A DNA stretch of 64,000 nt from the NCBI GenBank assembly GCA_034401795.1, contig CM067370.1, positions 52,917,380 to 52,981,379 on the forward strand, read 5' to 3'. A program made the translations under genes and the position numbers. Shown here piece after piece: positions 801 to 63,200 of this stretch. How positions within the stretch are numbered: the first letter of the stretch is position 1; each line of letters opens with the position of its first letter. Under the pieces are notes generated by a model. The model was not told the origin of the DNA. It searched no databases and saw nothing but the letters and a program-made list of their open reading frames with translations. Origin of the DNA: Chaetoderma sp. LZ-2023a. Lineage: Eukaryota > Mollusca > Caudofoveata > Chaetodermatida > Chaetodermatidae.

Positions 801-956
801 GGGTACGAAAGCTCCCTTCATATCCGCCTGGACCGCGCCTGTGCGACAGGAACAGCGGTGCCAGTTATACCCGTCGTGCCTAGAACGAAATGGTTCTCAC
901 TCTCTCTCGTTAAGAAGGGGGGGGGGGGGGGGCGGACTGCGAGCCGGACAACCCTG

Positions 957-3019
957 TTAGATGTCGAGGCGTCTATGGTGGGTGGAAGGCTCATGCGTTT
1001 CGTCGAGGCCTGGTGAGGTGTGACGTCAGACAGTCTGGTCCTGGGATGGTTATCCCAGGGTTACATGCCGGAGTGGTGGGACTTTCCGCCACAAAATCTG
1101 TCTTTGGCACCTGTCTGGACACCCGTACCAAGGGAGCCAGACAAGTTAGAAGCCGTTCAAAAGGAAGTGTCGGGTTTGCTTCTGAAGGGAGCAATAAAAC
1201 CAGCAAACCGAAACACTCCAGGCTTCTATTCAAACATGTTCCTTGTCCCCAAGAGCACAGGGGGATGGAGACCCATACTCAATCTCAGGCCATTAAATTG
1301 GTTTATCCATACGCCTCGGTTCCAGATGGAAACGCCGAGGTCGGTAATGGCGGGATTGAGGAGAGGAATGTGGTGTGTATCGATCGATCTGAAAGATGCA
1401 TATTTTCACATTCCTATGAATCGGAGTTGGCACAGGTTTCTGAGATTTGCGTTTCAGAATCAAGTATGGGAGTTTACAGTTCTCCCGTTCGGCCTGTCGA
1501 CAGCTCCGAGGGTTTTCACAAGAGTGGTCCTTGCGGTGACAGCGTTTCTCAGAAAAGAGAACGTGGCGCTACACACCTACATAGACGACTGGCTGCTCAA
1601 GGCAGACTCGGCAGCCAGGTTGAACGTGGATACTGCTCTGACTCTGAAGTTACTTTCAGATCTAGGCTGGATAGTCAACGAGGAGAAATCCGAGTTGACG
1701 CCCCTCAACATTTCGTTTATTTGGGGATGCGATTCGACCTCGAGGAGGGCAGGGTTTACCCGTCAGAGCCCAGAGTGGTGTCTCTGTTAGCCATCCTCAC
1801 GAGTTTTCGAGTGGGAAACCACATTCAGGCGAGGCGGTTCCTTCGGATGCTGGGTATGATGGTCTCCATGGAGCACGTTATCCCGTACGCTGCTCTAATG
1901 CGAAGGCCTATCCAGTTGTATCTGATGTCTCTGTGGAAACAGAGAACAGAACCCCTGTCAAAACTGGTGCCAGTTTTGGAGCCGATAATATCGCATCTTC
2001 TATGGTGGAAACAGCGTCAGAATCTCCTATTAGGGGTTTCGCTGCACCTACCCCACCCCCAGCTGTCTGTCTACACGGATGCATCGCTGGAAGGGTGGGG
2101 TGCCTGCCTGGGAGAACACCAGGTCTCGGGCACATGGACTCTCCCGGAGAGTCAGCTGCATATCAATCTGTTGGAAATGATGGCAGTGGAACTGGCGTTG
2201 GAAGAGTTCCTTCCGATGATCAGGGGCAAGGTGATATTGATACGGTCGGACAATTCGACAGTAGTATCATATATAAATCGCCAAGGCGGGACCAGGTCGC
2301 CCACCCTGTGCATCAGGGTGTGGCACTTGATTCAATGGTGCAGGAATTACTCGGTTGTTTTGAAAGCAGCTCATATTCCTGGCCGATTGAACATTCTGGC
2401 GGATGCTTTGTCTCGCAGACAGAGAATTTTGCCAACAGAATGGTCCCTCAACCCTCCGGTTCTGCGACGGATCTTCGAGCATTGGGGCAAACCCAACGTG
2501 GACTTGTTCGCCACAAAGGAAAATGCTCAAATCATGACATATGTCTCGCCGATTCCAGATCCAAATGCCGTCGATACAGACGCTCTGGCGATAAGCTGGA
2601 GAGGGATGCACGCTTACGCGTACCCACCCACCATTCTTCTACCGAAGGTATTGGTGAAGGTCAGGGAGGAACCGTGTCTCGTCCTGCTAATAGCGCCGTA
2701 TTGGCCGAGCAGGGCGTGGTTCACGGATCTTCTAGATCTGCTGGTGGAAAATCCTGTGCAGTTGCCCGAGATTCCGAACATAATCTCCCAGGCCAAGGGA
2801 CGCTTCCTACACGAGCGTCCCGAAATGTTCAAATTGACTGCGTGGATGTTGTCAAACAACGTTCCACGTCGGAAGGCTTTTCTCGACAGGCTGCTGATTT
2901 CATCGCAGCTGCGAGAAGGAGGTCAACCTTCAAGTCATATAACAACAAGGTTAACAGATTTGCAGACTGGTGTGAAGAAAAGGGTATTGATACCTTTCAA
3001 TCCACTATTCAGCAAATAG
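957..3019 (+). pseudogene. DIRS reverse transcriptase-RNase H polyprotein, broken
   Basis: The RT is read in one frame from about 957 to 1710. It has typical fingers and palm motifs, including DLKDAYFHIPM (about 1387) and the catalytic box YIDDW (about 1579). The frame carries a TGA at 1014-1016 in the N-terminal part, then shifts near a short C run at about 1700. The remainder continues in another frame to 3019. That part has an RNase H domain (about 2060-2425; motifs YTDAS, a Glu in INLLEMMA, RSDNSTVV, and AHIPGRLN with DALSR) and then the conserved post-RNase H DIRS region (DLFATKEN, about 2500-2800), often described as methyltransferase-like. Two disabling lesions make function unlikely unless they are assembly errors. 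The 3' end overlaps the recombinase frame by about 180 bp. Confidence 0.88.
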
Positions 3020-3861
3020 CAGACTTTCTCTGTGAGCTGTTCTTTTCAGGACTAGCTCCCGTCACAGTTGCTGGATACAAGTCAGCTTTGGCATCAGTTA
3101 TCCCTTGTCTAGCCAACAGGGATAGTCCAGAGGTGGCCCAGTTAAATGTGATGTTGAAGGGAATGAGCAATCTCCGCCCGAGACAACCGGTAGTCATTCC
3201 AGCCTGGAGTCTATCTTTAGTGCTTAATGTACTGGCCAAGCACCCTTTCGAACCGTTGCGTTCGGCTAGTCTAAAGCATTTGACTCTAAAGGCGGTCTTT
3301 CTATTGGCAGCTTCCTCAGCTAGAAGGCGCAGTGAGATCCATGCGCTTTCGGCAGAGAGGAACCGATTTATTGTTTCTGGAGAAGGTCTGCGTCTTCTGC
3401 CAAGAGCAGAGTTTATGTCAAAGAACCAATCTTTGAGATATCCCGGCAAACCGATCATTATACCGAAGTTAACTAGGTTTGATCGTGATGCCAGTGTCTG
3501 GTGCCCGGTCCGTGCTTTGACTAAGTACAAGAAACGGACTGACTCGTTACGGTCGAACGATAGACATCTGTGGATCTGCCATAAAAAGCCTTATGGCGCC
3601 GCATCCATGGATACTATCTCTCGCTGGGTGGTCGAATGCATTCAGACTACTCACGAGATGGCGACTGGGCACCAGGTGCAGGGCGTAAGGGCACACGATG
3701 TCAGAGGAATAGCCGCCTCGACTGCCCTTTACAATGGTGTTCCGTTAGAGTACATCATGGCCGTTGCACAATGGCACTGTGAGTCCTCATTTACGGATTA
3801 CTATATGAGGGATGTGTCAGACTCAGCCAATCCACTCGCTTTAGCTGTTTTGAAACGATAG
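2839..3861 (+). CDS. DIRS tyrosine recombinase (YR)
   Basis: About 340 codons in a frame different from the upstream RNase H, ending with TAG at 3859-3861. An N-terminal SAM-like core-binding region (around RRRSTFKSYNNKV, about 2910) is followed by the catalytic domain: Arg box RRRSEIH (about 3325), H-x-x-R box HDVRG (3693-3707), and the nucleophile Tyr in FTDYYMRD (about 3790). All four expected catalytic groups are present and the frame is open. In DIRS elements this enzyme inserts the circular cDNA without a target-site duplication. No ATG occurs near the domain start, so synthesis would need frameshifting, splicing or an upstream start. The start given is where similarity becomes plausible, not a proven start codon. 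Confidence 0.85.
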   Translation, partial: CVDVVKQRSTSEGFSRQAADFIAAARRRSTFKSYNNKVNRFADWCEEKGIDTFQSTIQQIADFLCELFFSGLAPVTVAGYKSALASVIPCLANRDSPEVAQLNVMLKGMSNLRPRQPVVIPAWSLSLVLNVLAKHPFEPLRSASLKHLTLKAVFLLAASSARRRSEIHALSAERNRFIVSGEGLRLLPRAEFMSKNQSLRYPGKPIIIPKLTRFDRDASVWCPVRALTKYKKRTDSLRSNDRHLWICHKKPYGAASMDTISRWVVECIQTTHEMATGHQVQGVRAHDVRGIAASTALYNGVPLEYIMAVAQWHCESSFTDYYMRDVSDSANPLALAVLKR

Positions 3862-6959: not shown

Positions 6960-8873
<1,914 letters not shown>

Positions 8874-10848: not shown

Positions 10849-11287
10849 GTATCTATTATATCCAGAAAAAACTTCAGCTGACTCTGCCGTCCTCATATTA
10901 CTTCATTTTATTCCTAATATCACATCCAAATGTCGTTCAGATATTCCCTTTGGTACTTCTGACCATTCATCGGCTAAGAAGTCTAAACCTTTTCCATCCA
11001 GGATTTTCGTTAATTCAAATCGATCCCGTCGTTCGAGTCCCTCCAGTCGTAGGTCTGCCTCAGATGCCTCCAGTTCTCCGACTTCATCTCCTTCTCGGCC
11101 TCAGAGGAAATCATTGTCTTCAGTCTATGGCCAGTCCCGTTTCGATGAAACAGTTGTAGCTCGTCCTCGTCCTCAGTCTTATGAGCCTTCCTCCAGCCAG
11201 TCTTCCTCATCATCCAATCATGGGTCATCTTGTCGAGGCAGAGGTCGTCGTGGTTCTTTCAAGAAGTCTTATCAACAGCGTTTTTGA
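10832..11287 (+). pseudogene. DIRS-B ORF1 (gag-like) remnant
   Basis: About 150 codons ending with TGA at 11285-11287. Very Ser-rich (from about 11000), with a basic tail CRGRGRRGSFKKSYQQRF at the stop, like the Lys/Gly tail of DIRS-A ORF1. It overlaps the ITR and is much shorter than copy A's ORF1, so the N-terminal half is probably deleted. Confidence 0.55.
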
Positions 11288-11290
11288 CGG

Positions 11291-13230
11291 TCCGCTCTCG
11301 ACACCCCTTCTATGCCAGTGGGCTTTCTATGTTCTCATCCCTCCATTCCTGTAAGGGCCCATCTGAGTCATTTCTGGCATCAGTGGTCTCCCCTGTCTCG
11401 GGACAATCAGTGAATTATTTCGGTTCTTCGAGGCGTTTTTTCTCCGGAATGGCTTCAGGATCCTCCTCCTTTATCTCTGATTCCAAAATGGACTCACATT
11501 CCCAAGGACTCCTCCCAATTATTTACCTTGGAAGAGGAGTTTTGGTCGTTAGTTCAAAAGTCGGCAATAGAGGAGGTTCTGGATTGGACTACCAATACAG
11601 GGTATTATTCCACCGTCTTTCTACTCACAAAGAAAACTGGGTGGTGGTGCCCCATCATCAATTTCAAAACTCAACAAGTTCATATTGACTCCTTCATTCA
11701 AAACGGAAACCATCCAGTCGGTGATTGCATCCCTAGATATCAGTATGTGGACCTGCTCAATCGACCTGAAGGACGCTTACTTCCATATTCCAATGCACTC
11801 ATCCTTCCGGCTGTATCTTCGTTTTGCCTACAGAGACAAGGTGTGGCAGTTTCGTGCTCTTCCATTTGGCCTTACGACTGCCCCCTTTCTATTTACTCAA
11901 ATAGTGTCTCTGGTGGCATCCTTTCTTCATCACCAGGCTATACACCTCTCTGTCTAAATAGACGACTCGCTCCTCAAAGCGTCATCGGAATCAACTTTCA
12001 ACCAGCAGTTAGTTTGCATCATTCCCCTAATCACAGACTTGGGCTGGATCATCAATCTAGAGAAATCCAGTCTCTCCTTCTCAACTTTTCAATCATCTTG
12101 GAGTTCGATTCGATCTAGTCCAAGGGAAAATTTTCCGTACCGTTTCCTTGCTGGAATCTCTCCAGTTTGCGGTTTCGATTCTGGTCAATCAAAAGGTGGT
12201 ATCAGCTTGCTTTTTTCTGAGAGTCCTTGGTCGCATGGTGTCGGTCGAAAGAGTTATTCCTTGGGCGGCAGCCATGAGACATCCTCTCCAACTCTATCTC
12301 ATGTCCTTTTGGCGCCAATTCAGAGGTCCCCTGTATCAACTGATTCCGATTCGTCCTCCTCTCCTGGAATTTCTTCCGTTTTGGCTAGACTCTGATTGTC
12401 TCTCGATAGGAGTCCCTCTTCGGAAACCTCTTCCATCGGCAACTATTTTCACTGATGCCTCCCTAGATGGATGGGGAGCTCTTTGGGACTCCTGTCATCT
12501 TTCAGGTCTTTGGTCCCATCAAGATTCTCTTCTTCATATCAATCTTCTGGAACTTTTAACTGTTTCGAAAGCCCTCCATTCTTGGGTTCATCTTCTTGTG
12601 AATCAGCACGTTCTTATTCGATCAGACAACACAATGGTAGTGTCTTATCTCAACCGCCAGGGAGGTACCAAATCCCCTTCTCTGTGTGCCAGGTCCTTTC
12701 ATCTTCTGATGTGGTGCCAAGATCACATTTCCCTCTCAGCAGCTCATATCCCTGGCCGTCTGAACTTCATTTCCGATCAACTGTCCAGACCAAACAAATT
12801 CGCGCACAAAGAGTGGCAACTGAAGAGAGGTTGCCAGATCGATTTTTCTCCTGCTAGGCTTCCCGTTGATAGACCTGTTTGCAACCTCTCTCAATACCCA
12901 GCTTTCCACTTACATGTCTCCCTTTCCAGAGGAGTCGGCCCAGGCGGTGGATGCTCTAATCCAGCCATGGATCGGTCTACATGCGTATGCCTTTCCCCTG
13001 ACAATCTTGGTCCCTCCTGTGCTCCGCAAGTTCGGCAGGAGGAATGTCTTGTCCTCCTGATAGGCCATTTTTGGGCCAAGAGGGGCTGGGTCCTGGATCT
13101 ACTGGTAGACTTCCCATACCTTCTCCCGTCCTCCCCGGACCTTCTGTCTCAGCTCAGAGGTCGCTCAGCTCAGAGGTCGTTGTCTTCACCCAAACCCCAG
13201 TCTGTTCAACCTCTGCGTGTGGAAGATATC
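11291..13230 (+). pseudogene. DIRS-B reverse transcriptase-RNase H, multiply broken
   Basis: RT motifs are spread over several frames: TGYYSTVFLLTKKTGWW (about 11597), SIDLKDAYFHIPM (about 11758) and FGLTTAPFLFTQI (about 11868). The catalytic box reads stop-IDD: a TAA at about 11956 directly precedes IDDSLL, so the active-site loop itself is interrupted. RNase H follows in 12148-12790 (FTDASLDGWGA, INLLELLTV, RSDNTMVVSYLNRQGG, AHIPGRLNFISDQLSR). The post-RNase H DIRS region (MIDLFATSLN, HAYAFPLTIL) is at 12866-13060. At least four frame changes are needed to follow it. Confidence 0.88.
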
Positions 13231-13235
13231 AAATG

Positions 13236-14283
13236 CCCAGTCTCTTCGAGAAGGTTTTCTTCTAGATTTCAAGAGATCCTTGCCCAATCCAGGAGGCCAG
13301 CCACTAGGAATGTCTACAGAGGTTGAGTTAAGATTTTTAATCAATGGTGTGCAGACCACAATATCCTGCCCGATTCGGCATCTTTATCAGAGGTGTTAGA
13401 CTTTTTTACTTACCTTTTTGACACTTTACACCTGTTAGAGGCTATCGTTTCGTGCTAGCTCAGTCTGTCCATTCTATTTCAAATGCCTCTCCAGCGGATG
13501 TTTCTACTCTTAACAATTTTGTTAGAGGCATGTCCAACATTCGTCCAGTGGTCAAGGCTCCTCTTCCTTCCTGGAATTTGTCTCTGGTCCTACAAGTCCT
13601 TAACAGCAAACACTTCGAACCCCTAGGATCTGTTTGTCTTAAGTTTCTTACTTTCAAGACTATTTTTCTGGTGGCCGCTGCCTCTGCCCGTCGTCGTTCA
13701 GAACTTCATGCTCTTTCAGCGAAAAGTGACCGCTTTTGTGACTCTGGGAATTGTCTTACTCTCTACTCCAGAAGGGAGTTTCTTTCCAAAACACAAACTC
13801 TTCGTCATCCGGCAGAACCCATTGTTCTTAGGAAATTGTCTTTGTTTTCACCAGGTGACAAGCTCTGGTGTCCGGTCAGGGCCTGAAAGATTTATAAAAC
13901 CCGAACCTCTTAAACGTCCTGACAATAAACATCTTTGGGTCACTTACGCTCCTTCTATTAACCGTGCGGCGTCCCTTAAGACTATTGCAAAATGGATAAC
14001 CGAGACTATGCATCCCGGCGATAGGCAGATAGTAGGGATTAAATCTCATGATGTCCGGGGTCTTTCTACTACCCTCGCCCACTTAGCAGGCTCATCCATC
14101 TCAGATATTATGCAAGTCACCGGCTGGAGACAGGAGTCCACCTTTATAAATTATTATCTTAAAGATCAGAGCCCATCTTCAGCTTTCTTTCGCAATATCA
14201 TTAATCTATCTTCACAAGCCATTCCGCACTTGCCGTGTGCTTCTTCTACAACATCTCATCTCTCAACGTCGTCTCATTCTTAA
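13236..14283 (+). pseudogene. DIRS-B tyrosine recombinase, broken
   Basis: N-terminal region from about 13236 (FQEILAQSRRPATRNVYR), interrupted by a stop at 13324. The catalytic domain lies in two frames: 13452-13886 carries the Arg box ARRRSELHALS. After a stop at 13884-13886 and a frame change, 13890-14283 carries HDVRGLST, GWRQESTF and the tyrosine pair in INYYLKD. All catalytic boxes are still visible. Confidence 0.88.
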
Positions 14284-14726: not shown

Positions 14727-14958
14727 CACAGGGGGGTGGGGGTGTGGGGGGGGAGTCTGGGTGTCATTATGGCCCTTACTATAGTTTCAAAGTACTGTTC
14801 AAAGTCTTTTGGGAAAATACATCATTAACATGTATCAATTGATTATAACCAAATTTGGCAGACATGTTCCTTTAGGCAATATCTATTTGGGCTATAAGGA
14901 TGAAGTTGCTACACCCTTAAACAAGGGCCATAACTTTGGTTCATTATTTCGTTTTTAT

Positions 14959-15530
14959 CTCACCTGGCATGAGAGGCCAAGTGAGCTTATGTCGTGGTGA
15001 CCGTCCGACGTGTGTCCATCATCCGTCCGTCTGGCAATTTTTCCTTTGAAACGACTTCTCAAGAACCGCTGGAACGATTTCAATTATATTTGGCAGGAAG
15101 CATTCTTAGGGCATAGGGTTCCAAGTTTGTTCAAACGAAGCCGATCAGCCAATTTGGCCGGCGGCCATCTTGGATTTTGGCCGATTTTTAGAAGCGACTT
15201 TAAAAATCTTCTCCGAAACTGCTTGAGGGATTGAAGCAAACCTCATGAAATATGATCTATGGCAAGAGCTGAACTGAGTTTGTTCAAGGGAACTTGATTG
15301 ACCAAATGGTGTGGCAGCCATCTTGGATGACCTAGTTTTCACAAAAACAACTTCTTCCACAAAACCGCTGAAGCGATCGGGCTGAAATATGTGATATATG
15401 ATTAGGAAATAAGGGCCATTAAAGTTTGTTGAAAAGAAGTTGATCCGTCAAAAAACATGTTTGTCGTGGGCCAATCAAAATATAGCGTGTTTGGCAGCCA
15501 TACTGGATATGGAGATGCATTATAATCAAT
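14959..15530 (+). repeat. 5' fragment of repeat family A
   Basis: Begins with the family hairpin (CTCACCTGG... GGCCAAGTGAGC). It continues with the CCGTCCG tract and the GGCCGGCGGCCATCTTGGAT-type blocks shared with 20203-21888, and is cut off near 15530. Confidence 0.75.
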
Positions 15531-17704: not shown

Positions 17705-18487
17705 ATGGATACAGTGGAAAGCAGTCAATTGCAGACAAACAAGTATGAGCAGAGAGGGAAAGAACTTTACAAATGAACTTTATGGATACTTTTGTTCTGT
17801 TGCTCTTTAATTTCTCATGCACTGCTTTGTGAAAAGAAAACAAACTGAGAGATATGAAATGGAGAAGACTGAAGCACTGTAATCCAATTCCATGATGGGA
17901 GTTCTGGATTTTGCTGAAAACCTCTAGGCCTATTTGCACTCAAGTTGAGGTATCATTAACCTACATGTACTGGAATCCGACTCAAGTTACACTCTAAACA
18001 TACATGTAGGTCTGTTAAATTTGGTTTCACGGAAATATTTCACTCTATGTACTTATCAGTAACAACATGCACCATGAGAAAATGTCATCAGTACTTTTTA
18101 TTGGTGACATTTGTCAGGGATACCTTCAAGGGTAAAAGAACATTGAACTTGGACAGGCCAACCAGAGAGCCAATTCAAAATCAACTGTGTAATGTCTATC
18201 TCCCATTCAGCCACTTTCACAAAAAACATAAGAAATAACAGAGGCATAACTGAAAATGAGCCCTTGGACATGTTGGATGAAATAGGCAATGAAGCTCTTA
18301 AGTTTGCTTGGAATATAAACTGTTTATTTCGAATGACTCAACAAGTTATAGCAGCGTTGTGTTCACTGACTGGTAAACTTTCAAATACACATGTATGTTC
18401 ACTAGTCGTTATTCATTTATAATACTTATCTCCTGTTAATGTTCAGGCATTTTTAGCCTAGTAGCTCAAGTTATTTTATGGTTTTTA
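17705..18487. other. Intergenic, nothing recognised
   Basis: A short open stretch at 18192-18420 has an ordinary-looking amino-acid mix, but I find no motif, splice context or family; not called as a gene. Confidence 0.4.
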
Positions 18488-20141
18488 TTGTCTTGCCTGC
18501 GAAGCAGGATCGAGACATAGCTATCACATTTCCGGCGGCGGCGGCGTAAACTTTTAAGTTAAGTTTATATCTCAGCAATGCCTCATCCAATTGGAACTAA
18601 ACTTGGGTGCATGATAATATACATCAAAAGGAAGCATCCCACCGATAAAAAGGCCATGAAGTCAAGGTTACAGGAGTCAAAGGTTACAGTATAATCTTTG
18701 TTAATATTTTACGTTATGTTTTTGCGTTAAACAAAAGTTATTGTCTTATATCTCAGCAATGCGTGATCCAATTGGAACCAAACTTGGGTACATGATGATA
18801 TCCATTGAATGGAAGCAGCCCACCAATAAAGCGCTCATGACGTCAAGGTTATGGGTTCAAAGGTCACAGTATAATCTTTGTTAATATTTTACGTTATGTT
18901 TTTGCGTTAAACAAATGTTATTGTCTTATATCTCAGCAATGACTGATCCAATTGGAACCAAACTTGGATACATGGTGATTTACATTTAACGGAAGCAGCA
19001 TGCTGATGCAGACATCATGAGGTCAAGGTTATGGGGTCAACGGTCACGGTATAATCTTTGTTAATATTTTACGTAAAGTTTTGGCGTTAAACAAAAGTTA
19101 TTGTCTTATATCTCAGCAATGCCTGATCCAATTGGAACCAAACTTGGGTACATGGTGATATACATTGAATGGAAGCAGCCCACTGATAAAGCCATCATGA
19201 CGTCAAGGATATGGGGTCAAAGGTCACAGTATAATCTTTGTTAATATTTTATGTTAAGTTTTTGCGTTAAACAAAAGTTATTGTTTTATATCTCAGCAAT
19301 CTCTGATCTAATTGGAACCAAACTTGGGTACATGGCGATATACATTGAATGGAAGCAGTCCACCGATAAAGCGGTCATGACGTCAAGGTTATGGGGTCAA
19401 AGGTCACAGTATGATCTTTGTTAATATTTTACGTTAAGTTTTTGCGTTAAACAAAAGTTATTGTCTTATATCTCAGCAATGCCTAATCCAATTGGAACCA
19501 AACTTGGATACATGGAGATATACATCAAAAGGAAGCAGCACGCTGATGCAGGCATCATTCCTTCAAGGTTATGGGGGTCAAAGGTCACGATATAATCTTT
19601 GTTAATATTTTACATTAAGTTTTTTAGTTTAGCAACTTTTCAGCTTATATTTCAGGATTGGTTAAGCCTATTGCAACTAAACTTGGATACCTGGTTATCT
19701 ATAATGATAGGAAGTGGCATGATTATGTTGGGGTCGCAAGGTCAAGGTCACTGTGACCTTGATATAGAACTGCTATTTCAAAAGTTTTTGCGTTTAGCAA
19801 AACTTCTCAGCTTATATTTCAGGATTGGTTAAGCCTATTGCAACTGAACTTGGATACATGGGTACCTATCATGTTAGGAAGCACCATGATGTTGGGGTAC
19901 ACAAGGTCAAGGTCACTGACCTTGATACAGAACTGCTTTTTCAACATTAAGTTTTTGCGTTTATCAGACCCTTTCACCGTATATTTCAGGATTGGTTAAG
20001 CCTATTGCAACTAAACTTTGATACCTGGTTACCTATAATCTTAGGAGCGGCATGATAATATTGAGGGCTGAAGGTCAAAGGTCAAGGTAGCTGTGACAAA
20101 TAGGAGACAGGCGAGACATTTAATTCCGCGGAGTTCTTGTT
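18488..20141 (+). mobile_element. Repeat family B: tandem-core non-autonomous element, about 1.65 kb
   Basis: It begins with GTCTTGCCTGCGAAGCAGG (a small hairpin) and ends with CAGGCGAGAC, a GC hairpin (TTCCGCGGA) and CTTGTT. The first and last decamers are near inverted copies. The core is six 180-bp units (the CTCAGCAATG anchor recurs at 18571, 18752, 18932, 19112, 19292 and 19472), then three related 167-bp units (anchors about 19641, 19808, 19975). This architecture resembles the tandem-core, Helentron-related elements known from bivalves; that assignment is inference. Confidence 0.7.
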
Positions 20142-20202
20142 GTATTTAAACATTTTACATCATGCGAGACACTTTTTTTAAAGTGTGCCTAATAAAATTA
20201 TT

Positions 20203-21888
20203 AGCTCACCTGGCCTGAACGGCCAAGTGAGCTTATTTCGTGGCAACCGTCCGTCCGTCATCCATCCATCAACTTTTCCTTTAAACGACATCTCAAGAAC
20301 CGCTGGGCCAATTTCAGTTATATTTGGCAGGACGCAGCCTTAGGGCATAGGGATCCAAGTTTGTTCAAATGAAGCCGATCGGCCAATTAGGCTGGTGGCC
20401 ATCTTGGATTTTGGCCGATTTTTAGAAACGTCTTTGAAAATCTTTTTCTCCGAAACCGCTTGAGGGATTGAAGGAAACCTCATGAAATATGATCTAGGGC
20501 AAGAGCTCAACCAACTTTGTTCTAGGGAACTTAATTGGTCAAACAGTTCGGCAGCCATCTTGGTTGACCTAGTTTTAACGAAAATAACTTCTCCAGAACC
20601 GCTGAAGGGATCAGGCCGAAATTTTGCAAATATGATTAGAGACTAAGGGCCAGTAAATTTTGTTCAAGAGAAATTGATCCGTCAAAAAACATGGCCGCCG
20701 TGGGCCAATCAAAATATAGCATGTTTGACAGCCATATTGGATTTTTTTGATTTGATGGATTTTGAGGCCAAAATTGTTTTTTATATAGGTTTTTGGGTAT
20801 TCTGATCTCAAATTTGCAATTTTCGAAACTGTCGGATAAACGGTTGGCGGCCATCTTGGACCATTTTCCCGCCAAAAGCTCCCATACTAAAGCAATGGGA
20901 AATTTAAAATATCTTCTCGAGAACTATTGGGCTGATTTCAATTATATTTGGCATGAACCATCCTTAAGGCATAGAGATTCAACTTTGTTCAAGGGAACCT
21001 GATCGGCCAATTTGGCCGTCGACCATCTTGGATTTTAGCCAATTTTTAGAAATGTCTAAAAATCTTCTCCCAAACTGTTTGAGGGATCGATTCAGAACTC
21101 ACAAAATATTATCTAGGGTAATAGCTGAATCAAGTTTGTTCAAGGGAACTTGATTGACCAAATGGCTCAGCGGCCATCTTGGAGGACCTAGTTTTCACAA
21201 AAATGACTTCCCCAGAACCACAGCGATCAGGCCGAAGTTTGTGATATATAATTAGGGATAAGGGCCATTAAAGTTTGTTCAAGAGAAGTTGATCCGTAAA
21301 AAGAAATGGCCTCTATGGGCCTATCAATATATAGCGTGTTTGGCGGCCATAATGTATTTTTTATTTGATTGATTTTGAGGCAAAAATTGGTTTTATGTAT
21401 TTTTGTGCGTATTGTGATTTCAAATTTGCCATTTTCGAGACTGTCGGATAAACGGTTTAGCGGCCATCTTGGATCATTTACCCACCAAAATCTCTTTAAA
21501 GATCAATTCAAAGCGCATGAAATATCATTTATGACAAGAGCTGCACCAAGTTTGTTTAAGGGAACTTGATTGGCCAAATGGTTTGGCGGCTATCTTGGGT
21601 AACCTATTTTTTACCAAAACAACTCCAGAACCACTGAGCGGATTGGGCCGAAATTTTGGAAATATGATTAGGCACTGAGTGCCATTAAAGTTTGTTCAAG
21701 GGAAGGAGCTTAGTCAGAAACATGGCAGAAGTAATCAATCAAAATGTAGCGTGTTTGGCGGCCATATTGGACGTGCAAAAATGTCCACAAACTCATTTAA
21801 ATTACTACTCCTAAGCCACCCACCAACAATTTTGACAAAAATACACAGTGCTCCAGGTGAGCGACACAGGCCCGTTGGATCTCTTGTT
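20203..21888 (+). mobile_element. Repeat family A, full-length copy, about 1.69 kb
   Basis: Starts AGCTCACCTGGCC...GGCCAAGTGAGCT (hairpin) followed by a CCGTCCG-rich tract. Ends CCAGGTGAGCGACACAGGCC, a weak hairpin and CTTGTT at 21883-21888. The interior repeats a roughly 550-600 bp module containing GGCCATCTTGGAT blocks and GTTCAAGGGAACTTGATTGG. No protein is encoded. Also at 46863 (near full length) and as fragments at 5567 and 14959. Confidence 0.75.
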
Positions 21889-22625: not shown

Positions 22626-24606
22626 TGGTCAAACCATGGTTTGTCACCGCCCATCAAACATGGTTTGTCACCGTCCATCAAACATGGTTTGTCACCGCCC
22701 ATCAAACATGGTTTGTCACCGTCCATCAAACATGGTTTGTCACCGTCCATCAAACATGGTTTGTCACCGTCCATCAAACATGGTTTGTCACCGCCCATCA
22801 AACATGGTTTGTCACCGCCCATCAAACATGGTTTGTCACCGCCCATCAAACATGGTTTGTCACCGCCCATCAAACCATGGTTTGTCACCGCCCATCAAAC
22901 ATGGTTTGTCACCGTCCATCAAACATGGTTTGTCACCGCCCATCAAACATGGTTTGTCACCGCCCATCAAACCATGGTTTGTCACCACCCATCAAACATG
23001 GTTTGTCACCGCCCATCAAACATGGTTTGTCACCGCCCATCAAACCATGGTTTGTCACCGCCCATCAAACATGGTTTGTCACCGTCCATCAAACATGGTT
23101 TGTCACCGCCCATCAAACATGGTTTGTCACCGCCCATCAAACCATGGTTTGTCACCGCCCATCAAACATGGTTTGTCACCGTCCATCAAACATGGTTTGT
23201 CACCGCCCATCAAACCATGGTTTGTCACCGCCCATCAAACATGGTTTGTCACCGCCCATCAAACATGGTTTGTCACCGCCCATCAAACATGGTTTGTCAC
23301 CGCCCATCAAACCATGGTTTGTCACCGCCCATCAAACATGGTTTGTCACCGCCCATCAAACCATGGTTTGTCACCGCCCATCAAACATGGTTTGTCACCG
23401 CCCATCAAACCATGGTTTGTCACCGCCCATCAAACATGGTTTGTCACCGCCCATCAAACCATGGTTTGTCACCGCCCATCAAACATGGTTTGTCACCGCC
23501 CATCAAACATGGTTTGTCACGCCCATCAAACATGGTTTGTCACCGCCCATCAAACCATGGTTTGTCACCGTCCATCAAACATGGTTTGTCACCGCCCATC
23601 AAACCATGGTTTGTCACCACCCATCAAACATGGTTTGTCACCGCCCATCAAACATGGTTTGTCACCGCCCATCAAACATGGTTTGTCACCGCCCATCAAA
23701 CCATGGTTTGTCACCACCCATCAAACATGGTTTGTCACCGCCCATCAAACATGGTTTGTCACCGCCCATCAAACCATGGTTTGTCACCGCCCATCAAACA
23801 TGGTTTGTCACCGTCCATCAAACATGGTTTGTCACCGCCCATCAAACATGGTTTGTCACCGCCCATCAAACCATGGTTTGTCACCGCCCATCAAACATGG
23901 TTTGTCACCGTCCATCAAACATGGTTTGTCACCGCCCATCAAACCATGGTTTGTCACCGCCCATCAAACATGGTTTGTCACCGCCCATCAAACATGGTTT
24001 GTCACCGCCCATCAAACATGGTTTGTCACCGCCCATCAAACCATGGTTTGTCACCGCCCATCAAACATGGTTTGTCACCGCCCATCAAACCATGGTTTGT
24101 CACCGCCCATCAAACATGGTTTGTCACCGCCCATCAAACATGGTTTGTCACGCCCATCAAACATGGTTTGTCACCGCCCATCAAACCATGGTTTGTCACC
24201 GCCCATCAAACATGGTTTGTCACCGCCCATCAAACCATGGTTTGTCACCGCCCATCAAACATGGTTTGTCACCGTCCATCAAACATGGTTTGTCACCGCC
24301 CATCAAACCATGGTTTGTCACCGCCCATCAAACATGGTTTGTCACCGCCCATCAAACATGGTTTGTCACCGCCCATCAAACATGGTTTGTCACCGGCCAT
24401 CAAACATGGTTTGTCACCGCCCATCAAACATGGTTTGTCACCGCCCATCAAACATGGTTTGTCACCGCCCATCAAACCATGGTTTGTCACCGCCCATCAA
24501 ACATGGTTTGTCACCGCCCATCAAACATGGTTTGTCACCGCCCATCAAACATGGTTTGTCACCGCCCATCAAACATGGTTTGTCACCGCCCATCAAACAT
24601 GGTTTG
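22626..24606. repeat. 24/25-bp satellite array, about 81 copies
   Basis: Unit of the form ATGGTTTGTCACCGCCCATCAAAC plus minor variants: an extra C making a 25-bp unit with the palindrome CAAACCATGGTTTG, ACCGTCC, ACCACCC, and a 1-bp deletion (CACGCCC) at 23520 and 24151. Because 24 is a multiple of three and 25-bp units shift the frame, all three plus frames stay open for about 2 kb; these are not genes. Variant order repeats, showing internal segmental duplication. Confidence 0.97.
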
Positions 24607-25289
24607 ATCATGGTCATTTGAGAAATTTGTTTGTAGCATTTGCCTTTCTGTCAGACTTGTGCCAGTAGTAATTGTACTGCATGTTACTACCACGCAGCAA
24701 GGCTTTAAGGTTGAGTCTCTAAGCTATGCTTGCATGAAACCCATACTTGCCCGTTGGGTAGTACCATGGGTATATTGATTTGACAAGTGGATTGTTAAAT
24801 TTCAAAATGAGACTGGTGGTCCATCATATCCTGTGATGTACAATTAATATACAGGTAAGCTATTTACTATCTTCTGATAGATATTATTCTATATATGTAC
24901 ATGGCTTGGACATTATTTTTACATAGAATATTTATTTAGTCCAGTGCAGACCGGGTCCTGTAGCAACATTAGAAGACGAGATATTTGGTATCTTCTGATA
25001 CCTCTTGTTATACTATATCATAAATAACATAACAGCTGACATAATTGTAGACTAAATGAATGAAACAACATAGCAGAGGACTTACATTTTATAATAAACA
25101 CGCTATATTTACTCAGTTTCATTTTTATCTCTCATTTTCACGAATGTTGAAAAAAGAGATTTTGGGAGATTGGGAAAAAATGTTGGCGTCGGCATTGGCG
25201 TTGGGACAGGTTAATCCTTTTTAAAATAACATTTGTGGTTATCCGATTTAAAAAGACATTACACAGATAGATGTGTTCTATGGGATGCT
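24607..25289. other. Intergenic, nothing recognised
   Basis: AT-rich. Contains a phrase (GCTATTTACTATCTTCTGATAG, about 24857) that recurs at about 29099, on the other side of the triplication, so both may belong to one older repeat. Confidence 0.5.
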
Positions 25290-29045: not shown

Positions 29046-29939
29046 GATGTTTCTACTACTACAGCCGCAGAATACAGTAATCATACATACACACAGGTAA
29101 GCTATTTGCTATCTTCTGATAGATCTTGTGGAATTTTAGTATGACCCCAGGTGTACAGCTCTGGGGGTGAGAAATGTGGGGTAAAAAATAACATTTTTCC
29201 AAAGGTGGTCATGTTGCATATCGTTTTGAAGCCAATGATGAGTAGACTACAGTACAAGGAATTATTTTGATCTTGGGTCAAACTGAGGGTAGGGGGCGGA
29301 GTCAAAAGTGGGCACCAATCGATTGTAACGCAACTCCTCCTAGACCATTTCCCTTAGAAACTTGAAACTTTCGCTATGATTACACATATGGCCAGGGATG
29401 TGCCTGACCCATTGGAATTTTAATATCCCCCCGCCCAGGGGCAGGGGTGGGGGGAAATGGTGGGCAGAAAATAAATTTTATCAACGAGTCCTGCGGCAGC
29501 CGGATCCTGCAGTTAGTAGGGCAGATATGTGAAAAAGATGTTCCATTCTAGCAGAAAGCATGAAATTTGGCATATAGGTGGTTTACGGTATCCTGATCAT
29601 AATTAGATGCGGTGCCACGTGATTCTACCAAGGGAACCCATTCAAAATTGCGGATTCAAAATGGCCGCCTTCCCAGTGGAAAATTCGCATTACTCAAGCT
29701 CTAGACCGAGTAGAGAGATGGGATTAATATCAAATTAGGGGTTTCATGGGTCAATCGTTATAATTCTACTCACTACAATACTCTAAATATGTAAATATCA
29801 ATCCTTCCATAGTGACCACATGTGTTTGATGTCAAAAGACGGTGGCTCTTTAAGATGTGTTATCTAAAAAATCCATCTCTTGAGAACAAAAGCAATATAG
29901 CATCTAGGAAAAGTTTAAATTACTTGATTTCTTAATATC
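29046..29939. other. Intergenic with dispersed-repeat fragments
   Basis: Contains G-rich GGGGCGGAGTC-type and GGCCGCCTT-type phrases typical of the other dispersed repeats. No gene seen. Confidence 0.4.

Positions 29940-35509: not shown

Positions 35510-63200
<27,691 letters not shown>

Follow-up and report, generated by a model that had tools for sequence, protein, structure and literature searches.

In a 64,000-nucleotide stretch of the genome of the caudofoveate mollusk Chaetoderma sp. LZ-2023a (contig CM067370.1, positions 52,917,380 to 52,981,379 of the forward strand; here called the window), two short elements, family B and family A, lie in the same orientation with 61 bp between them. 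Our analysis makes it highly probable that they represent two non-autonomous Helentron families, or HINEs, of the Helitron2 group, which depend for their copying on the Rep-helicase-endonuclease encoded by full Helentrons like those of the same genome. Their assignment to the Helentron-type, rolling-circle class, already made in an original prediction from the letters of the window, is well supported because of the end structure, the repetition of the ends from copy to copy, the T-rich insertion, one empty site without a clear duplication, and the presence of full Helentrons in the same genome. The spread of satellite-like arrays in animal genomes has been tied to HINEs, and the oyster study on them was unable to connect them with a source of the enzyme (PMC7492417).

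Two elements with unrelated cores and one end structure

Both elements are read as complete non-autonomous Helentron-like elements (HINEs) on the plus strand. B spans positions 18490 to 20141, as delimited by sequence reading and by tandem-repeat and copy comparison; A spans 20203 to 21888, as delimited by sequence reading and by self- and copy comparison. They have a common layout, consisting of a 5' hairpin, a short microsatellite-like run, a tandem core, the reverse complement of the 5' arm, a palindrome, and a terminal CTTGTT. In both, the arm of the 5' hairpin is 10 to 11 bp long, and its reverse complement lies 24 to 26 nt before the 3' end.

The 5' hairpin of B occupies positions 18490 to 18516, and its first arm (GTCTTGCCTG, 18490 to 18499, in the window copy) constitutes the 5' asymmetric, or subterminal, inverted repeat. 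A GGC microsatellite-like run, read by eye, follows at about 18534 to 18546. Tandem Repeats Finder resolved the core (18565 to 20046) into period-180 units (18565 to 19624, 5.9 copies) followed by period-167 units (19606 to 20046, 2.7 copies). The 3' subterminal inverted repeat (subTIR), CAGGCGAGAC, is located at 20108 to 20117, 24 nt from the 3' end of the window copy; in this copy, nine of its ten positions are complementary to the 5' arm. B closes at 20122 to 20141 with a palindrome (20122 to 20135, carrying one change in this copy) and CTTGTT (20136 to 20141).

A repeats this arrangement with different sequences. Its 5' hairpin (20203 to 20233) opens at 20203 with the inverted-repeat arm AGCTCACCTGG, followed by a GTCC/ATCC microsatellite-like run at about 20248 to 20270, again read by eye. 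Self-comparison revealed a core of ~625-bp units from 20291 to 21769, the third of them partial; the units at 20291 to 20881 and 20915 to 21494 are 80.6% identical. The 3' subTIR, CCAGGTGAGC (21853 to 21862), sits 26 nt from the 3' end of the window copy and pairs with the 5' arm at 10/10 positions. The last feature, at 21868 to 21888, combines a palindrome that is decayed in this copy (21868 to 21882) with CTTGTT (21883 to 21888).

The original prediction of two unrelated elements built on one architecture was thus borne out by both layouts, and blastn found no match between the families (best E value, 0.34), their cores being unrelated. It had also described both as having no open reading frame (ORF), and no stop-to-stop ORF of at least 150 amino acids overlaps 18490 to 21888. 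The 5' hairpins are more stable than shuffled sequences. A DNA fold of 18487 to 18522 in B reached -7.2 kcal/mol (z -2.9; equaled by 2 of 200 shuffles), and the A hairpin reached -12 kcal/mol (z -6.1; equaled by none of 200). CTTGTT by itself does not exceed chance (38 observed versus 51 expected), and the weight therefore lies only in the entire arrangement recurring across copies.

The ends recur in copies elsewhere in the genome

We searched the 2.44-Gb assembly, comprising 2753 contigs, with each element. The B query gave 4734 first-look candidates and the A query 21817, numbers that are not scored counts; 40 candidates were scored for each, with 85 and 83 matches, respectively. The B sample (n = 21) consisted of the window copy plus 20 copies from the best matches, many of them chosen since the match began at the start of the query. 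The A sample, 17 5' ends and 3 3' ends, was chosen for matches reaching the ends of the element. Since the copies come from the best matches, the uniformity described below is that of selected, well-preserved copies.

Alignment of copies, named in the original prediction as the way to fix the ends, supported them in both families. The 5' end of B was present in 18/21 copies and the 3' end in 17/21. In 15 of the 18 5' ends the arm reads GTCTCGCCTG, the perfect partner of the 3' subTIR, from which the window copy departs by one change; together with the flanking T, this common arm pairs over 11 bp. The B palindrome, AATTCCGCGGAATT, was exact in 7/17 3' ends, the rest carrying a single change or being truncated at the edge of the locus. 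After CTTG, 13 of the 17 3' ends continue with TT, two with TA and one with TC, and one has nothing before the locus edge. For A, the 5' ends were alike in 17/17 copies and the 3' ends in 3/3; the clean palindrome AGGCCC..GGGCCT was seen in one of these three, and exact CCAGGTGAGC was kept in only one of three.

At locus L069 (60 to 171), a second A begins ~40 bp past the 3' end of another A. With A following A at this locus and A following B in the window, insertion beside existing ends may be favored.

Insertion flanks and an empty site

The sequences preceding the elements are rich in T. TT occupies positions -2 and -1 in 17/17 A and 18/18 B 5' flanks. The A flanks (n = 17) read R-T-T-W-T-T, with T at -5, -2, and -1 in 17/17 and at -4 in 16, a purine at -6 in 16, and either A (9 flanks) or T (7 flanks) at -3. 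In the B flanks (n = 18), T occurs at positions -5 to -1 in 17, 18, 16, 18, and 18 cases, and G at -6 in 11/18. Position -3 sets the families apart, being T in 16/18 B flanks versus 7/17 A flanks. The excess of purines at -6, tested against each family's own flank background (16/17 in A, p = 2e-5; 14/18 in B, p = 0.01), concerns a position chosen after inspection of the data and a non-random sample of copies. The commonest hexamers were GTTTTT (11/18 B and 5/17 A flanks) and ATTATT (6/17 A flanks). The pattern NTTNTT is common to the flank RTTWTT and to the element's own 3' CTTGTT. The tendency toward RTTWTT is a modest new detail; if true in a random sample, it would sharpen the loosely defined "T-rich" target. 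The exact 5' terminal base of A and B is ambiguous within the flanking Ts. Likewise, for mite HINEs the number of Ts belonging to the element was described as not decidable (PMC4067079).

The original prediction had proposed testing for T-T insertion sites without duplication. TT was found in every A and B 5' flank of the samples; on duplication, the evidence comes from one usable site and is ambiguous by 0 to 3 bp. For 14 different insertions of B that retain both ends, we looked for empty sites in the window and in the fetched loci. The usable one is L024, where B is inserted in an A core with uninterrupted relatives, 73 to 79% alike, in the window and in L006. Uninterrupted A cores, such as that of L006 (AAATCGGTTTTATATG) and that of the window (AAATTGGTTTTATGTA), accommodate both the sequence to the left of B (AAATTGGTTTTATT) and the one that follows CTTG on its right (TATATGTG), with an overlap of TAT at most. 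A duplication is not needed at this site, and none exceeds 3 bp; some alignments contain small gaps near the junction. A true 3-bp TAT duplication as a general rule was rejected, as several other copies lack matching triplets on both sides. Another empty site (L009/L002), located in a local repeat, has a ragged left side.

The L024 hexamer preceding the element, TTTATT, breaks the R rule and ends in a T that the uninterrupted relatives do not have, so that not all of it was target at this site. At L057, a dispersed repeat matches the 5' flank of an A copy. Of five uninterrupted copies of this repeat, four read ATTTTTG and the fifth has four Ts; RTTTTT therefore pre-existed in the target at that locus. 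The 3' flank of L057 has no match to the host repeat, and this comparison covers the left half only.

Autonomous Helentrons in the same genome

The Pfam domain Helitron_like_N has 103 matches genome-wide, and DNA comparison sorts the 20 Rep loci that we fetched into about four groups. Two lineages, F1 and F2, carry long uninterrupted ORFs. The F1 ORF (C12:45787635-45795023, minus strand) runs uninterrupted for 2463 codons and contains Helitron_like_N, PIF1, and Exo_endo_phos. The F2 ORF (C1:24534401-24542449, assembled from L072, L035, and L071) extends over 2683 uninterrupted codons, with a herpes-tegument-like deubiquitinase, OTU, DUF6570, Helitron_like_N, PIF1, and Exo_endo_phos. A second copy of the F1 lineage is 97.8% alike over 3.6 kb. 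With abundant HINEs, uninterrupted Helentron ORFs, and two Helentron copies this similar, the partnership is therefore testable in this genome. The second F1 copy also bears a 2.2-kb insertion, LINE (long interspersed nuclear element)-like by eye only.

Sequence similar to A accompanies F2. It is found at position 744 and at 11144 to 13700 of the F2 stretch, where the latter segment starts with the A 5' hairpin after CCATTATT, and A-like sequence lies 3' of the ORF in two F2 copies (11315 to 13842, 94.8% alike). F2 itself was considered as the partner of A and set aside as the less likely reading, as nothing in the A-like part matches the 3' end of A. With the A 5' hairpin present and no A 3' match, the segment resembles a nested, truncated A insertion in F2. 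Most simply, it would be an A insertion that predates the split of the two copies, and a HINE may in this manner travel along with a Helentron.

Comparison of copies fixed no ends for either Helentron. In F1, similarity reaches the fetched edges on both sides. In F2, it reaches or passes the upstream edge in two further stretches, one a C4 copy and the other from C1349, which at 98 to 99% identity may be an alternative haplotype of the C1 copy. A different C4 copy is cut short on the 5' side, and in the first C4 copy the 3' part finds no match. Similarity between the C1 copy and the second C4 copy ends for both at F2 position 13842, and no hairpin with CTTGTT was seen there.

One machinery or two

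In the mechanism that we propose, Rep would nick the T-tract at the 5' end of the element, and the helicase would then displace one strand. While the 3' inverted repeat paired with the 5' arm, this strand would be halted and cleaved through the 3' palindrome and CTTGTT. Insertion of the resulting single-stranded copy would take place in a T-tract, often RTTWTT, and the satellite-like core would be cargo that expands and shrinks. For Helitron2, it was suggested that such 5'-3' pairing displaces the 5' hairpin and ends replication (PMC3627910). In both families the 5' hairpin carries a flaw, a mismatch in A and a two-base bulge in B, and the 5' arm can pair flawlessly with the 3' subTIR. The A flaw, GGCCAAGTGA, is kept in 14/17 copies (one copy is flawless, one is different, and one was not found), and the AT bulge of B in 18/18, as found by a pattern permitting substitutions only. 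A flaw kept in this way would suit displacement of the 5' hairpin by 5'-3' pairing; the copies share descent, and the point is suggestive only.

That A and B are mobilized by one and the same machinery, as the original prediction held, is plausible because they have a common end grammar, CTTGTT, a similar flank rule, and alike subTIRs. The subTIRs agree at 7/9 positions, a degree of likeness obtained in 2.3% of trials with random pairs, and their differences are matched in both arms (GCTCACCTG/CAGGTGAGC and TCTCGCCTG/CAGGCGAGA). The same observations may also be read as two Helentron lineages serving A and B, both HINEs, each lineage with its own subTIR and with CTTGTT and the T-rich flank as general Helentron features. 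This reading has a substantial chance, somewhat short of even. The roughly four Rep-locus groups among the 20 fetched accommodate it, as do the different 3' palindromes, the two subTIR differences in nine positions, a likeness only modestly beyond chance (0.023), and the frequent T at -3 in B (16/18) compared with A (7/17). It is opposed by the similar spacing of A and B, their identical terminal hexamer, and the similar flank rule, and by further 3' ends in the window that obey the same grammar. A more specific version of the shared machinery, which we regard as unlikely, would have one Helentron machinery read a variable subTIR pair, a variable palindrome, and a fixed CTTGTT, moving families with unrelated cores, with its Rep accepting NTTNTT both as the 3' terminus (CTTGTT) and 5' of the insertion (RTTWTT). 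A single Rep site might then underlie both motifs. This dual role is weakened because the L024 hexamer TTTATT is not wholly target.

Two readings outside the Helentrons fare much worse. A and B are short, non-coding, and abundant and have inverted repeats, as expected of tandem-repeat MITEs (miniature inverted-repeat transposable elements) moved by a DDE transposase, and Pearl, a bivalve element, was formerly filed as a MITE (PMC7492417). However, their inverted repeats are asymmetric, the 5' one terminal and the 3' one 24 to 26 nt inside, the one usable empty site needs no duplication, and the 3' palindrome recurs among copies, which together make this origin very improbable. Least probable of all, and to us scarcely credible, is that they are satellite fragments scattered by recombination, with end structures arising by chance. 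B-core-like units do occur outside recognized B ends, at 54870 to 55590 and 36154 to 36406 of the window, but across 18 B and 17 A 5' ends the end of the element stays the same while the flanks are unrelated.

Some results weigh against the end structure itself, and others against copying of A and B by Helentrons present here. In the window, neither 3' hairpin folds better than shuffles (z 0.2 for B and 0.5 for A); cleaner 3' forms are found in copies elsewhere. Joined flanks found a match in the window or the fetched loci for only 2 of the 14 B insertions, one of them ragged. No convincing A or B ends were detected within 1.5 kb of 20 of the 103 Rep matches, one of these loci being cut by a contig end; the scan yielded a 12-nt hit to the B arm with two mismatches, inside the Rep region of L033, and two coding hairpins before CTTGTT. 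The 15.5 kb around the 2463-codon ORF contained no A or B ends, and on the 3' side of other Rep loci, three stretches of 3.8 kb gave a single hit to the A arm, with up to 3 mismatches and on the opposite strand (L082). The F2 stretch likewise showed no A or B ends in the position of Helentron termini. An autonomous Rep/helicase element with the same hairpin and CTTGTT, which the original prediction proposed to look for, was not found in the stretches read.

Other features of the window

The window holds two additional A-family sequences on the plus strand. The copy at 46863 to 48613 retains the 5' arm and the 3' subTIR, has lost the second arm of the 5' hairpin, and ends with CTGTTGTT; the copy at 14957 to 15508 is truncated and keeps the 5' hairpin. 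The sequence flanking an A copy at another locus, L052, is 81% like window positions 54828 to 54885.

Two 3' ends on the plus strand belong to further elements with the grammar of A and B. One (24971 to 25009) consists of GACGAGATATTT, the palindrome GGTATCTTCTGATACC, and TCTTGTT; the other, from a related element (29090 to 29130), consists of CAGGTAAGC, the palindrome CTATCTTCTGATAG, and CTTGTG. No 5' ends matching these two 3' ends were found. A 1064-bp unit, repeated three times in tandem and 99% alike where compared, follows the end at 25009, from 25289 to about 28390. A 2-kb array of a 24-bp unit, with 96% matches, occupies 22629 to 24606, and its period leaves three frames open. Long overlapping ORFs at 914 to 3861 and 11414 to 14283 look, by eye only, like DIRS-type reverse transcriptase/tyrosine recombinase, and a 343-amino-acid ORF on the minus strand (7539 to 8570) looks, again by eye only, like a Tc1/mariner transposase.

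Comparison with known systems

The architecture of A and B has already been described in oysters and flies, and the two are additional families of a published type. A or B may already bear a Repbase name, and the A end sequence presumably resembles repeats common in several marine invertebrates. Neither family has the features of canonical Helitrons (Helitron1: 5' TC, 3' CTRR, an A/T target, and no 5' hairpin); their 3' CTTGTT, 5' hairpin, and T-rich flank exclude them from that group. Four traits of HINEs were found instead: subterminal inverted repeats, a complementary inverted repeat beside the 5' subTIR together with a microsatellite (the 5' hairpins, with the GGC run in B and the GTCC run in A), a palindrome after the 3' subTIR, as seen in the copies, and T-rich/TT insertion.

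In Helitron2, the asymmetric terminal inverted repeats (ATIRs) measure 8 to 15 bp, the 5' one being terminal and located in a hairpin and the 3' one lying 20 to 30 bp from the 3' end, immediately upstream of a hairpin; the algal examples insert beside T-tracts (PMC3627910). A and B match this description, in which 0 to 2 bp separate the 5' ATIR from the 5' end: their 5' arm belongs to a hairpin, their 3' subTIR lies 24 nt (B) or 26 nt (A) from the 3' end, and the 10 bp of A are within the Helitron2 range. Helitron2 is described as having a Rep-helicase without endonuclease, unlike the Helentrons of this genome; fusion of an endonuclease to Rep-helicase is the defining trait of Helentrons (PMC4067079).

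The HINE/DINE-1 elements likewise have subTIRs, central repeats, and a 3' palindrome, and they insert with at least two Ts on each side, leaving the target unchanged; their Helentrons encode the same Rep-helicase-endonuclease fusion as F1 and F2 (PMC4067079). Their partnership was established by shared sequence, whereas the partner of A and B is inferred. FoHeli of Fusarium resembles A and B in its ATIRs, the terminal hairpins of some subgroups, a fixed short 3' motif, and an extended target preference, TNAT in that case; it differs in being fungal, in having many autonomous members, and in its other motifs (PMC5148889).

Cg_HINE of the Pacific oyster is a very close match, sharing with A and B the subTIR pair, the complementary inverted repeat by the 5' subTIR, the 5' microsatellite, the satellite-like core, the palindrome after the 3' subTIR, the existence of several families with unrelated cores, and T-rich/TT insertion, reported for Cg_HINE without duplication (PMC7492417). 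Its microsatellites are of the types GTCY, GTCC, and GTCK, and A has a GTCC run. The oyster subTIRs are 11 to 12 bp long (PMC7492417) and those of mite HINEs 12 to 15 bp (PMC4067079), compared with 10 bp in A and 11 bp in B with the flanking T, a likeness drawn from description only. The ~625-bp unit of A is a difference from Cg_HINE. For the oyster, ten autonomous Repbase elements are mentioned for which linkage to Cg_HINE was not possible (PMC7492417), and the assembly paper reported no evidence of autonomous Helentrons (PMC7992393). Unlike the oyster as described there, the Chaetoderma genome contains uninterrupted Helentron ORFs.

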